Shown piece by piece: positions 3,964 through 21,327 of a DNA stretch of 33,927 nucleotides (its first letter is position 1; every line of letters starts with the position of its first letter). Source of the stretch: Opitutus sp. GAS368 (GTDB lineage: Bacteria > Verrucomicrobiota > Verrucomicrobiia > Opitutales > Opitutaceae); NCBI GenBank assembly GCA_945903545.1, contig CAMDOO010000034.1, positions 1 through 33,927 of the forward strand, in the 5' to 3' direction. The translations under genes were made by a program, and so were the position numbers. The notes beneath the pieces were generated by a model. The model worked only from the letters and a program-made list of their open reading frames with translations, was not told the origin of the DNA and did no database searches.

Positions 3964-9871
<5,908 letters not shown>

Positions 9872-9879
<8 letters not shown>

Positions 9880-9933
9880 TGGCACCCGGACTACAACCCT
9901 GAGATAAGATGTAGGCCGGGTGCCCTCACCCGG
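9872..9933. repeat. REPIN-like element carrying the uvrA stop codon
   Basis: Inverted pair of 23-nt units. The plus unit 9911-9933 is GTAGG, then CCGGGTG / CCCT-type loop / CACCCGG-type arm. The minus unit 9894-9872 is GTAGT, then the same 7-bp stem with a CCAT loop. They differ at only two positions. The uvrA TGA (9877-9879) lies in the left hairpin. The structure could also slow RNA polymerase or protect the uvrA mRNA 3' end, but there is no T-run. Confidence 0.85.
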
Positions 9934-13127: not shown

Positions 13128-13131
13128 TGGA

Positions 13132-13201
13132 GAATGTGGAAAGCTGGAAATCAGGAAATGGATTGCTGAGCCCATCCCGCTTTCCTACTTTCCATATTCG
13201 C
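13132..13201. repeat. Inverted pair of GGAAA short-period arrays
   Basis: Left arm 13132-13161 has an 8-nt period (TGGAAAGC, TGGAAATC, AGGAAATG). The right arm 13172-13201, read on the minus strand, begins GAATATGGAAAG and matches the left arm's GAATGTGGAAAG at 11 of 12 positions. It sits in the convergent gap between eno and rlmI, after the eno terminator. Confidence 0.7.
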
Positions 13202-13211
13202 TATCTGCGCC

Positions 13212-14627
13212 CTATTCCGCCTGCACGACATACCCCCGCAGGTACTCACTCTCCGGCATCGTCACGAGGACGGGGTGATCCGTCGGCTGGTGACAGAACT
13301 CCACGATCCGCACCTTCCGCTTCGCATCGGCCGCCGCGCCCGCGAGGACGGAGCGCAGCTCGGCGTCCTGCATGTGGTGTGAGCAGGTGTAGGTCGCGAG
13401 GACGCCGCCCGGCGCGAGCCGCTGCAGGGCTCGCAGGTTGATTTCCTTGTATCCCCGAAGCGCACCCTCAAGCGCGCTCTTCGATTTGGCGAACGGCGGA
13501 GGGTCGAGGATGATCACATCCCACGGCACATCCCCGCCGCGCGCGGCGTCGTTAAACCAGTCGAAGACATTGGCCACGGCGAACTCCGCCTCCACGCCGT
13601 TGCGCTCGGCGTTGCGCCGGGCCGCCGCGACGGCGTCCTCCGCGCTGTCGAGGCCCAGCACGTAGGAAGCTCCGGCGCGAGCAGCGTGCAGGGCAAACGG
13701 GCCCTGGTTGCAGAACGCGTCGAGCACCCGCTTGCCCGCACAGTACTTCGCCACCAGCGGATGCTGCGCGCGCTGGTCGAGGTAGAATCCGGTCTTTTGT
13801 CCCGACAGCAGGTCGAGCCAGTAATCGAAACCGTCGATCTTTACCCAACGCGGCGCCCACGGCTTGCCCGAACGGGTATGCACCTCGAGCGGCAGGCCCT
13901 CGAGCCGGCGGATCGGAGCGTCGTTGCGGAAGATAATCTCGGCCGGCTTGAGCGCCTCGGCCAGCAGGTCGCCGATCAGACCACCGCGCTGCTCCAGCGC
14001 CAGGCTCTGGATCTGCACTACGAGTGTCTCGCCGAATTTGTCGACGACGAGGCCCGGCAGGTCGTCGGACTCCGACCAGACCAGGCGGCAGTTGTCCGGC
14101 AGGGCGGCGACTCCGCTGCCCGCCGGTGGATTGTTTGCAGGCAAAGCCGAAGCCGCTGGCGCGGCTTCGCGAGGTCGGCCGCTCTGGCCGCGATTGAATT
14201 CCGCGATGGTTGGCGGCGGTCCGTCCTGGCCGCGATTGGATGCTTCGACAGGTAGGGCTGACCCGCTGGGTCGGCCGCGATCATCCGGTCGGGCCAGCCC
14301 CGCGGCAGGCTCTGGGCCCTGAGCTTGTCGAACGGGCGGCCCAACCCTACCCCCGGACCGCCGCGCGATCGCGCGGCCAATCGCCGCCCCGAGAAACGCC
14401 GCATCCAGCGCCACCCGCTCACGGCTCAGCCGGCGCCAGATGATCTGGGAGCGCGAATTGTAGATGCCCGAACCGAGAAAACGATTCGCCCGGTCGCGGC
14501 ACTCCACCACCTGGCCGTCGTGCTCCGGTGACAGCAGCTCCACCACCTCGTTGGCAAAGACCCACGGATGTCCCGACAAGACACGGGGCTTGGCATTGGG
14601 CTTAAGAGTGAGTGCGGGAACGGCCAT
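13212..14627 (-). CDS. rlmI: Class I SAM-dependent rRNA cytosine-5 methyltransferase (RlmI type)
   Basis: Probably methylates a cytosine of 23S rRNA; E. coli RlmI acts on C1962. The N-terminal PUA-like part carries LSGHPWVFANEV and GSGIYN. A central part has RLVWSESDDLPGLVVDKFG. The C-terminal Rossmann domain has VLDAFCNQGPFALHAARAGA (SAM site), ILDPPPFAKSK, and TCSHH with the likely catalytic Cys. The start ATG 14627 (MAVPAL) fits the PUA start; further upstream the frame reads through an intergenic repeat. The 471-residue protein is about 75 residues longer than usual. The excess is a Pro/Gly/Arg-rich block at residues about 91-178 that corresponds to a cluster of palindromic repeats in the DNA. 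RlmI versus a close paralogue cannot be settled here. Confidence 0.88.
   Translation of the reverse strand: MAVPALTLKPNAKPRVLSGHPWVFANEVVELLSPEHDGQVVECRDRANRFLGSGIYNSRSQIIWRRLSRERVALDAAFLGAAIGRAIARRSGGRVGPPVRQAQGPEPAAGLARPDDRGRPSGSALPVEASNRGQDGPPPTIAEFNRGQSGRPREAAPAASALPANNPPAGSGVAALPDNCRLVWSESDDLPGLVVDKFGETLVVQIQSLALEQRGGLIGDLLAEALKPAEIIFRNDAPIRRLEGLPLEVHTRSGKPWAPRWVKIDGFDYWLDLLSGQKTGFYLDQRAQHPLVAKYCAGKRVLDAFCNQGPFALHAARAGASYVLGLDSAEDAVAAARRNAERNGVEAEFAVANVFDWFNDAARGGDVPWDVIILDPPPFAKSKSALEGALRGYKEINLRALQRLAPGGVLATYTCSHHMQDAELRSVLAGAAADAKRKVRIVEFCHQPTDHPVLVTMPESEYLRGYVVQAE
14094..14357. repeat. Compound repeat insertion inside rlmI (about 264 bp, in frame)
   Basis: Contains a plus-strand REP unit at 14252-14282 (GTAGGGCT / GACCC-GCT-GGGTC / GGCCGCGATC). 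An inverted GTAGGG foot lies at 14350 (CTAC 14347-14350). There is a direct repeat CTGGCCGCGATTG at 14184 and 14226 (42 nt apart). On the minus strand the motif TTCGACAAGCTCAGG covers about 14319-14333. All of it is translated in frame as low-complexity residues 91-178. Edges are approximate, judged from where the methyltransferase homology stops and resumes. Confidence 0.8.
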
Positions 14628-14685
14628 GCCGACACCCTGACCGGTGCCCTTTGCCCGCGCCAAATCAATTCTCGGCACGGCATTT

Positions 14686-14777
14686 GGCACACAGAGACAC
14701 AGAGGGCACAGAGACCGGACGGATGGGATGTCCCAAATCCACGATTGGGCTCTGTGTTCTCCGTGTCTCTGTGTGCC
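14686..14777. repeat. Inverted ACACAGAG array pair between rlmI and prfC
   Basis: Left arm 14686-14713 begins GGCACACAGAGACAC. The right arm 14750-14777, read on the minus strand, begins with the same 15 bases. The 28-nt arms match at 25 positions. Each arm is a short-period array of CACAGAG units (8-9 nt). The loop is 36 nt. It lies in the divergent 5' region, 59 bases from the rlmI start and 74 bases from the prfC start, so it would be in the leader of either gene. Confidence 0.85.
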
Positions 14778-14851
14778 GCCAAAGGCTTGGATTCGACAAC
14801 TTCTCCCTTCCCCTGTCGGCCCAGACCTTCTTCCCTCTCCCCTCCCACGCC

Positions 14852-16570
14852 ATGTCACCCGCCGCCGAAATCGCCCGCCGTCGCACCTTTGCGATCATCT
14901 CGCACCCGGATGCGGGCAAGACGACGCTGACCGAGAAGTTCCTGCTCTACGGCAACGCCATCCACCTCGCCGGCGCCGTGAAGGACCGCAAGAACCAGCG
15001 CGCCACCGCCTCCGACTGGATGGAGCTCGAGAAGCAGCGCGGCATTTCCATCAGCTCGACCGTCCTCCAGTTCGACTTTGCCGGCTGCGCCGTCAATCTG
15101 CTCGACACCCCCGGTCACAAGGACTTTTCCGAGGACACCTACCGCGTGCTCACCGCCGTCGACGCCGCCCTCATGGTGATCGACGCCGCCAAGGGTGTGG
15201 AAACCCAGACCCGCAAGCTCTTCGAGGTCTGCCGCCGCCGCGGCGTGCCGATCTTCACGTTCATGAACAAGTGCGACCGGCCGACGCGCAACCCGCTCGA
15301 CCTGCTCGACGAGCTGGAGAGCGTGCTCGGCCTGCAGTCCTCGCCCGTCATCTGGCCCCTCGGCAATGGCCCGCAGTTCAAGGGCGTCTTCGACCGCCGC
15401 ACCCGCGAGGTGCACCTCTTCGAGCGTGTCCCCGGCGGCAAGTTCCAGGCCCCGGTAAATGTCACCGACCTCGACGACAAGGCTGTCCGCGACAAGCTCG
15501 ACGACGACACCTACGCCAACGTGAAGGAGCAGCTCGAGATGCTCGACGGCGCCGGCCACCCGTTCGACCTCGCCAAGGTCCGCGCCGGCCAGCAGACCCC
15601 GGTCTACTTCGGCAGCGCTGTGAACAATTTCGGCATTGAGCTCCTGCTGAACGGATTTCTCCAGGACTCCGTGCCGCCGCAGCCCCGTACAAATTCGGTG
15701 CCGGGCTGGACCGGGAGTGCCAAGTTCCAAGTGACAAGTGACAAGAGCCAGGCATCGGACGCCGATCCTCTCGTCACTCGTCACCCGTCACCCGTCACTT
15801 CGATCGTCCCGATCGACTACCCGAAGTTCTCCGGCTTCATCTTCAAGATCCAGGCGAACATGGACGCGAAGCACCGCGATCGCATCGCCTTCCTCCGCGT
15901 CTGCTCGGGCAAGTTTGAGCGCGACATGGTCGTGACCCACCAGCGCACCGGCAAGCAGGTGCGCCTGTCGTCGTCGCACAAGCTCTTCGGCCGCGAGCGC
16001 GAGACCGTGGATGTGGCCTGGCCCGGCGACGTGATCGGCCTCGTCGGCCACGGCGAGTTCGGCATCGGCGACACCCTCACCGAGGACCGCGGCATCATCT
16101 ACAACGAGATCCCGCGTTTTCCGTCCGAGGTCTTCACCTACATCTCCAACCCGAACAGCGGCGACTCGAAGAAGTACCGCGCTGGCCTGGAGCAGCTCCT
16201 GCAGGAGGGCGTCGTCCAGTCCTTCATGCCCCGCAACGCCCCGCCCGGCTCGACCCTCCTCGCCGCCGTCGGCCCGCTGCAGTTCGAGGTCGTGCAGTGG
16301 CGCATGCAGAGCGAGTACAACGCCGAGTCCCGCCTCACGCCCACGCCCTGGACCCTGCTCCGCTGGGTGACGAAAGCCGACGGCACCACCCTGCGCCAGC
16401 CCAACGGCTCGATCGACTTCACGCCCTACATCGTCGCCACCAGCGTCAGCTTCGGCGTCGACAAGTTCGACCAGCCCATCGTGCTTTTCCCCAACGAGTG
16501 GACGATGCGGTATTTCTTGGAGAAGAACGCCGACCTAAAGCTGCACGATCTGCCGCTCGATCCGGTTTAA
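14852..16570 (+). CDS. prfC: Peptide chain release factor 3 (RF3)
   Basis: Translational GTPase that recycles RF1/RF2 from the ribosome after termination. G motifs: SHPDAGKTT (G1, residues 17-25), the G2/switch region with KQRGISISS, DTPGHKDFSEDTYR (G3) and NKCDR (G4). EF-G-like domains II and III follow (GFIFKIQANMDAKHRDRIAF, then ..LQFEVVQWRMQSEYN). ATG 14852 (MSPAAEIARRR) is a typical RF3 start. At 572 residues it exceeds E. coli RF3 by about 40. The extra residues lie mainly between the G domain and domain II (about residues 283-318), where the DNA holds an inverted heptad array. The sequence stays in frame and all catalytic motifs are intact, so it should be functional. Confidence 0.95.
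   Translation: MSPAAEIARRRTFAIISHPDAGKTTLTEKFLLYGNAIHLAGAVKDRKNQRATASDWMELEKQRGISISSTVLQFDFAGCAVNLLDTPGHKDFSEDTYRVLTAVDAALMVIDAAKGVETQTRKLFEVCRRRGVPIFTFMNKCDRPTRNPLDLLDELESVLGLQSSPVIWPLGNGPQFKGVFDRRTREVHLFERVPGGKFQAPVNVTDLDDKAVRDKLDDDTYANVKEQLEMLDGAGHPFDLAKVRAGQQTPVYFGSAVNNFGIELLLNGFLQDSVPPQPRTNSVPGWTGSAKFQVTSDKSQASDADPLVTRHPSPVTSIVPIDYPKFSGFIFKIQANMDAKHRDRIAFLRVCSGKFERDMVVTHQRTGKQVRLSSSHKLFGRERETVDVAWPGDVIGLVGHGEFGIGDTLTEDRGIIYNEIPRFPSEVFTYISNPNSGDSKKYRAGLEQLLQEGVVQSFMPRNAPPGSTLLAAVGPLQFEVVQWRMQSEYNAESRLTPTPWTLLRWVTKADGTTLRQPNGSIDFTPYIVATSVSFGVDKFDQPIVLFPNEWTMRYFLEKNADLKLHDLPLDPV
15722..15802. repeat. Inverted pair of heptanucleotide arrays inside prfC
   Basis: Left arm: AAGTTCC, AAGTGAC, AAGTGAC, AAGAG (15722-15747). 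The right arm, read on the minus strand from 15800 down to 15768, is AAGTGAC, GGGTGAC, GGGTGAC, GAGTGAC, GAGAG. The loop is 20 nt. It has the same 7-nt period and inverted design as the uvrA element, with a different heptamer. It is translated in frame in the linker after the RF3 G domain. Confidence 0.85.
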
Positions 16571-21205: not shown

Positions 21206-21327
21206 TTTGCCCGCGAATGGACGCAAATGGACGCGTATAAAATAGCCGATAATTTCGGAAATTGACTGGAGCAGGCCCCACTCAGGATTTCCGGATTCGC
21301 ATGAATTCGCGTCCATTCGCGGGCAAA
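21206..21327. repeat. Inverted array element inside the MoxR-vWA cluster
   Basis: TTTGCCCGCGAATGGACGC (21206-21224) is the exact reverse complement of 21309-21327, a 19-bp perfect inverted repeat with an 84-nt loop. The arms extend imperfectly with 10-nt periodic CGCGAATGGA / CGCAAATGGA units. It occupies the only sizeable gap (148 bases) between the DUF58 and BatA-like genes, where the other junctions downstream of moxR overlap. Confidence 0.85.

Follow-up and report, generated by a model that had tools for sequence, protein, structure and literature searches.

A paired heptad array in the release factor 3 gene of Opitutus sp. GAS368 as a probable gene-less member of the S23/IVP element family

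The release factor 3 (RF3) gene of Opitutus sp. GAS368 contains in its linker a pair of inverted heptad arrays, which we read, with a probability of roughly 0.65, as a gene-less, non-autonomous member of the S23/IVP element family. Its identity as a variant, outside rRNA, of the intervening sequence (IVS) kind, and the association of such arrays with S23 genes, are well supported. Elements of this anatomy, commonly with four units in each arm, are dispersed through the genome and differ in presence and in unit between orthologous sites of related genomes; S23 (PF05635) genes lie between such arms in several phyla. The window mentioned below is the whole stretch of 33,927 nucleotides analysed, and its two main elements are as follows.

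6548..6590, + strand: left arm of the uvrA element, AGTCGAG-type unit
6612..6652, - strand: right arm, the inverted array of the uvrA element
14852..16570, + strand: release factor 3 gene with the element in its linker, orthologues across the family
15716..15750, + strand: left arm of the RF3 element, with two intact GTGAC units among its five heptads
15751..15768, + strand: insert between the RF3 arms, with a small internal palindrome (from sequence and fold)
15769..15800, - strand: right arm of the RF3 element, all four GTCACNN units intact

The initial annotation had placed an in-frame array of GTGAC units in inverted arms in the RF3 gene, and this array is indeed found at 15716-15800, in frame in the linker. 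The right arm is a four-unit GTCACNN array (ctcgtca, ctcgtca, cccgtca, cccgtca, ct; TRF 15770-15799, period 7, 4.3 copies, score 46), and the left arm, on the other side of ggcatcggacgccgatc, is a degenerate array of the AGTGACA type (agtgcca, agttcca, agtgaca, agtgaca, agagcca; TRF 15716-15750, period 7, 5.0 copies, score 42). The hairpin is imperfect because the left arm has just two intact GTGAC units. An open reading frame (14612-16570) runs uninterrupted across the element, the RF3 start being most likely at 14852. Where a TGA would be in frame, the left arm reads AAG-TTC and AAG-AGC. The stop-phase units of other coding copies, read by hand, are AAG-TTC and ACG-TTC in L080, presumably an ABC-transporter-like gene, AAG-AAT in L064 (5436), and AAG-ATC and AAG-GAC in L043, the RF3 gene of genome G018. 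As a separate observation, with phases also read by hand, the element's own TGA is the predicted stop of the upstream gene at six places (L061 5778, L064 5929, L065 3951, L072 4047, L076 4016 and L086 4075). Rfam at gathering thresholds gave no match anywhere in the window.

The uvrA array (about 6548-6652) is likewise real and in frame, and the proposal that the uvrA and RF3 arrays represent one kind of element and a real class was borne out: the class is dispersed in the genome and present in relatives. The three-unit pattern GTGACNNGTGACNNGTGAC has 62+61 matches (123, overlapping, the elements themselves being fewer) in the 3.08-Mb genome, and its reversed control has 0+0 in the whole genome. 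The neighbourhoods of 100 listed among the 123 matches, later contigs lying outside this sample, yielded 37 GTGAC sites including the window, some of them one-armed. A gene caller based on codon usage, with the UvrA and RF3 of the window as its initial training set, places 5 of these 37 sites within predicted ORFs, and most sites hug gene ends. Location in frame, earlier seen as a property of the element, is not supported as one.

Both arms were parsed at 29 of the 37 sites, the parse at L079 being poor. The left arm has four units in 21 of the 29 and the right arm in 22; the commonest form, 4+4 around a short insert, accounts for 16. Of the 29 innermost spacers on each side, 22 on the left and 28 on the right read GA or AA, and the outer edges are A-GTGAC and GTCAC-T in most parsed elements. 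Between the two arms of one element 19 of 71 spacers are identical (null mean 24%, with 33% of permutations as high); arm spacers are no more alike within than across elements, and therefore neither arm is a recent copy of its partner. As RNA the elements fold strongly (median z -6.6 for the 29 parsed elements), though more weakly on the mRNA strand in both parsed coding copies, namely RF3 (MFE -27.8 kcal/mol, z -3.7) and L080 (z -1.9). Among the 27 elements outside ORFs, a distance of at most 30 nt separates 25 flanks from a gene 3' end and 16 from a 5' end; GTGAC elements also occur between divergent genes. The short copies, dispersed by dozens, have the same arms, mostly 20-65 nt apart, and for the most part their inserts show no relationship (pair scores average 6.71 versus 6.02 for shuffled ones), which is unlike simple copies of one master.

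The link with gene family PF05635, missed by the initial annotation, is provided by a long copy, L124 (L076 4907-5457; contig C25 of the same genome, G000), where five and four GTGAC heptads of the unit GTGACRR enclose a 126-aa ORF. Its product matches PF05635 (E 5.4e-32), the TIGR02436 four helix bundle family (E 1.1e-28) and PDB 2gsc (Xcc0516; E 1.5e-22). At E 0.001, PF05635 matches 13 loci of the genome, of which 11 score above the curated cut-off and 2 below it. By eye, all 13 genes are bounded by arrays (eight with heptads), and by script 11 are; L121 just misses because of the periodicity of its right arm, and the 9-nt arrays of L132 lie further out. The units around these genes include AGTCGAG, AGTAGCG, AGGAGTC, GTGACRR, TCAGANG, GGAGGCN and ATTTTTG. 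Compared with these 13 arm sets, the RF3 arms agree best with L124 (left 15, next 9; right 26, next 10), and the uvrA arms with L121 (left 23, next 8; right 21, next 10). Intergenic DNA of the sample, with GTGAC masked, contains 22 period-7 runs versus 1 in shuffled sequence; periods 4, 5, 8 and 10 gave 1, 4, 8 and 5 runs, and period 9 also 22. The sample contains 49 further period-7/8 arrays, and 18 of them match an arm set of the genome's own 13 S23 genes, compared with 13 of 245 unit-permuted controls.

Across genomes, the association was measured by a strict arm test whose criterion was fixed after looking: the plain score had 14 of 85 loci above the 99% control value, and periodicity was then added. 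So defined, the test is passed by 59 of 85 PF05635 loci (own genome 11/13, relatives 48/69, distant 0/3), by none of 305 windows shifted within these loci, and by 5 of 183 ordinary genes, three of which sit between GTGAC sites for which the loci were chosen. The 69 loci of relatives are the best-scoring among the matches listed (29, then the next 40), the own genome and one contig-end match being skipped. The three distant loci are the relatives of the L124 protein in wider genome contigs; in the genomes that carry them (Chlorobiota, Cytophagales and a Nitrospira MAG), 7 of 20 PF05635 loci pass. Plasmid loci, all but two of them cyanobacterial, were tested after the criterion was set, in 27 of 29 records (H3 and H15 were omitted as probable near-duplicates): 19 of 27 pass (14/14 of the first choice, 5/13 of the rest), as do 7 of 125 shifted windows. 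Nearly perfect TAGGGAG arrays lie on both sides of the S23 gene in a Nostoc edaphicum plasmid, and GGTGACA arrays surround the S23 gene between cas6 and cas4 in a plasmid of Anabaena sp. 90.

As a side observation, array-ended S23 genes occur in cas loci of the cyanobacterial plasmid loci L303, L306 and L311, twice between cas6 and cas4 and once between cas10 and a cmr3-family gene. Insertion of such elements in cas loci may explain the reported presence of IVP genes there (PMC3936711). Another S23 element (L122 1440-1880) lies between gyrB and gyrA, as named by eye; its flanks are homologous in G003, G019 and G043, and relatives with the same unit are found elsewhere (L152, L177, L184).

Similar S23 proteins tend to come with similar repeat units, and this holds for sites that are not orthologous too. 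Over the 59 passing loci, protein similarity correlates with arm similarity at r 0.479 (null sd 0.047, the largest of 2000 nulls 0.168). Because orthologous loci make up many of the close pairs, the 53 pairs whose flanks are homologous were removed, after which r is 0.348 and the largest null 0.178. In the remaining pairs the unit is shared by 73% of those with protein similarity of at least 0.7 (n=22, from few lineages) and by at most 3% of those below 0.55. The proteins nearest to that of L124 (L144, 0.61; L170, 0.59) have GTGACRT-like arms at another site.

Comparison of the RF3 linker in relatives is based on 20 loci from same-family genomes besides our own, 19 of which span the linker. 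The element is absent from G001 and G002, of the same genus, and from G003, all of which have 46 residues in a stretch that numbers 67 in our protein. Other arrays, with units assigned by eye, occupy the linker in frame elsewhere: CTCAACT (L040, G005), CGCCCCT (L038, G019), TCCAAAA (L047, G023) and AAGTGAC (L043, G018). The RF3 linker is a permissive spot where arrays were acquired more than once.

Similar turnover was observed in the sibling G001, in which loci were located via joined flanking peptides; 31 sites could be anchored, and 6 of the 37 were not comparable. Ten of the 31 are short or empty, one has the same GTGAC unit, and 14 have a periodic array of another unit, ten of period 7 and four of period 8 or 9, of which L061, L067 and L068 may be due to chance. 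The script assigned the other six to neither class, L062 and L089 resembling decayed arrays. No target duplication, such as a MITE of a DDE transposon would leave, is evident at the 31 sites, where the element boundaries are blurred. The length difference at RF3 is 63 nt by protein alignment and 61 nt by the anchor-based script, owing to a 2-nt gap inside the anchor; at L074, L080, L090 and L064 it is about 3, 30, 3 and 45 nt (anchor-based, the raw G001 gap lengths including 10 extra nt). At all five in-gene sites the difference is a multiple of 3. The in-frame bias suggested earlier as a diagnostic was nevertheless rejected: only survivors are seen, selection on survivors alone would leave multiples of 3, and one third is the wrong null because copies breaking essential genes could never be seen.

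Three control genomes were scanned for inverted heptad pairs, and one of them had examples. G005 has four inverted period-7 pairs in 400 kb and eight PF05635 matches, and its unit GTTGAGA is that of its S23 locus L174. No such pair was found in 400 kb each of G006 and G028, both without a PF05635 match. G006 (L240-L259) has 42 single period-7 runs, 41 of them oriented with the sign of the local GC skew, which is unusually large there (up to 0.37 in size). Either these runs are remnants after loss of an S23 gene, or arrays can exist without S23.

We propose the following explanation. A full element would be a PF05635 gene bounded by two inverted arrays of about 28-35 nt each, usually four heptads, with a unit that differs by S23 lineage. 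The inverted arms may fold into a hairpin as single-stranded DNA or RNA, and the matching S23 protein would recognise this hairpin. With the help of host enzymes of replication, repair or RNA processing, the hairpin would then be copied or inserted elsewhere, gene-less copies being served in trans. Recognition by S23, mobilisation in trans and the chemistry of movement are hypothetical. Insertions would be retained at the ends of genes and in linkers of proteins, and within genes if the frame is kept and TGA units are absent from the stop phase. S23 genes are often kept at one site across genera and are therefore not themselves highly mobile. Several points count against this explanation: movement was not seen, boundaries are not clean, inserts are mostly unrelated, 26 of the 85 loci fail the arm test, G006 has single runs, and only 18 of the 49 other arrays match an own arm set.

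Alternatively, slippage of the polymerase could have produced the arrays as simple sequence repeats, as in a hypothesis that Rehm et al. 2015 (PMC4692102) quote, with pairs and gene context incidental. Period 7 is over-represented as such, and G006 has single unpaired arrays, but inverted pairs with mostly four units per side, the association with PF05635 and a unit identity that follows the protein make this origin improbable. The elements might also serve the host in RNA processing or termination, as hairpins retained for gene regulation with S23 as their RNA-binding protein; this would fit the strong folds, the closeness of flanks to gene 3' and 5' ends in the elements outside ORFs, and the persistence of S23 loci at the same sites across genera. 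It is unlikely, however, in view of the many orthologous sites that in G001 are empty or occupied by a different unit, and of the elements located within coding sequence or between divergent genes.

Two further alternatives concern the moving enzyme. In habit the elements resemble REPINs moved by a RAYT (Y1) transposase: they are intergenic, paired, hairpin-forming and gene-less around a single-copy gene, and RAYT and REP are present in this genome. Nonetheless, all three Y1_Tnp loci of the genome lack GTGAC heptad arms, two having TGTAGGAGC arms (L218, L219) and one no clear arms; REP/RAYT is a separate system here, and its involvement is very improbable. Movement as RNA via a reverse transcriptase, with S23 acting like the related Avd of diversity-generating retroelements, would agree with the weak Avd match of the L124 protein (E 6e-4, under the cut-off of that model) and with terminal stems that resemble RNase III substrates of intervening sequences. 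Against this route, to which we give little credence, the 98.64% complete draft genome has no RVT_1 match.

The S23-linked explanation can be compared with known systems. Salmonella IVS exist in ORF-less forms. The 23S rRNA IVS of Coxiella has a terminal stem of 28 bp and an S23p ORF preceded by tandem GACAGAT heptamers, which vary between strains; it is excised by RNase III, and the idea of a mobile element is already old (PMC4990558). The elements described here share with the IVS of Coxiella and Leptospira a PF05635-family ORF between terminal inverted repeats (L124 being the long form with an S23p/IVP ORF) and, as a family, an inverted-repeat stem of about 28 bp (4+4 in 16/29, strong folds), seen only weakly in the RF3 copy itself with its degenerate left arm. 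They differ in lying in protein genes, such as RF3, and in intergenic DNA rather than in 23S rRNA, in dozens of gene-less copies and in many units per genome.

Paired inverted heptads had been considered undescribed, which does not hold: besides the Coxiella IVS heptamers, GGGAATC arrays of Xanthomonas, mostly of four units, form 70 and 75 convergent pairs in two genomes (Rehm et al. 2015, PMC4692102). These arrays are intergenic near ORFs in 89% and 93% and intragenic in 7-11% of cases; the same report also covers the GGGGAYT arrays of Nostoc, treats both kinds as G-quadruplex repeats, states that heptamers are generally not associated with mobile elements, and leaves the role of heptameric arrays to be elucidated (PMC4692102). 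The arrays described here are similarly intergenic near ORFs, in inverted pairs and mostly of four heptads, and, in contrast to those of Rehm et al., which that report links to no gene, are tied to PF05635 genes. Cyanobacterial STRR, plain tandem heptanucleotide repeats, share the heptad length with the S23 arms, and the S23 genes of the Nostoc and Anabaena plasmids lie between inverted heptad arrays.

REPINs bear a GTAG tag beside the hairpin, and their repeats flank a Y1 transposase gene. REP elements with RAYT provide a precedent for gene-less dispersed hairpins and a gene flanked by the same repeats (PMC3733652); our elements have another protein, no GTAG tag, and k-mer arrays as arms. Rickettsia palindromic elements, of about 150 bp, also lie in frame within housekeeping genes (PMC10969869) and are not known to carry heptad arrays or an S23 gene; they occur mostly in ORFs, whereas most copies here are intergenic (5/37 in ORFs). 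Among the open-licence papers listed in searches, none linked dispersed heptads to S23, and this link appears to be new.

More tentatively, in a generalisation that is possible but on which we would not rely, S23/IVP proteins may be sequence-specific partners of widespread mobile hairpins, each lineage reading its own unit of 6-9 nt. Heptad arrays of Verrucomicrobia, cyanobacteria and probably Xanthomonas would then be gene-less copies, the rRNA IVS a special case that landed in rRNA, and a PD-(D/E)XK (PF13366) branch with 8-10 nt units would run in parallel. If true, this would be a mobility system without a recognised transposase or reverse transcriptase. The S23 link itself joins two orphan observations, the scattered heptameric arrays and the S23/IVP proteins; for the latter, which have a solved structure and are familiar from inserts in rRNA, we found no established function. 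It gives each repeat unit a testable partner protein, and the hairpins turn over within a genus and can enter housekeeping proteins via linkers.

PF13366 is a parallel gene class with array ends. At L206-L213 (8 of 11 matches examined) flank scores are 17-29 versus 8-18 in windows shifted within these loci, and the arms have mostly 8-10 nt units by eye, L208 not being periodic. Other arrays of the window touch on this class. At 21206-21327, a 10-nt unit (CGCGAATGGA-like) forms inverted arrays around 56 nt that match best the arms of the PF13366 (PDDEXK_3) gene L207 elsewhere in the genome (scores 18 and 20). A lone 8-nt array at 13130-13161 is nearly identical to the arms of the PF13366 gene L212 (score 26). 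Just upstream of RF3, at 14686-14777, ACACAGAG-type inverted arrays with units of 8-9 nt match weakly the PF13366 locus L209 (scores 14 and <10). Finally, a REP-type hairpin with a TGTAG tag is present at 9872-9933.
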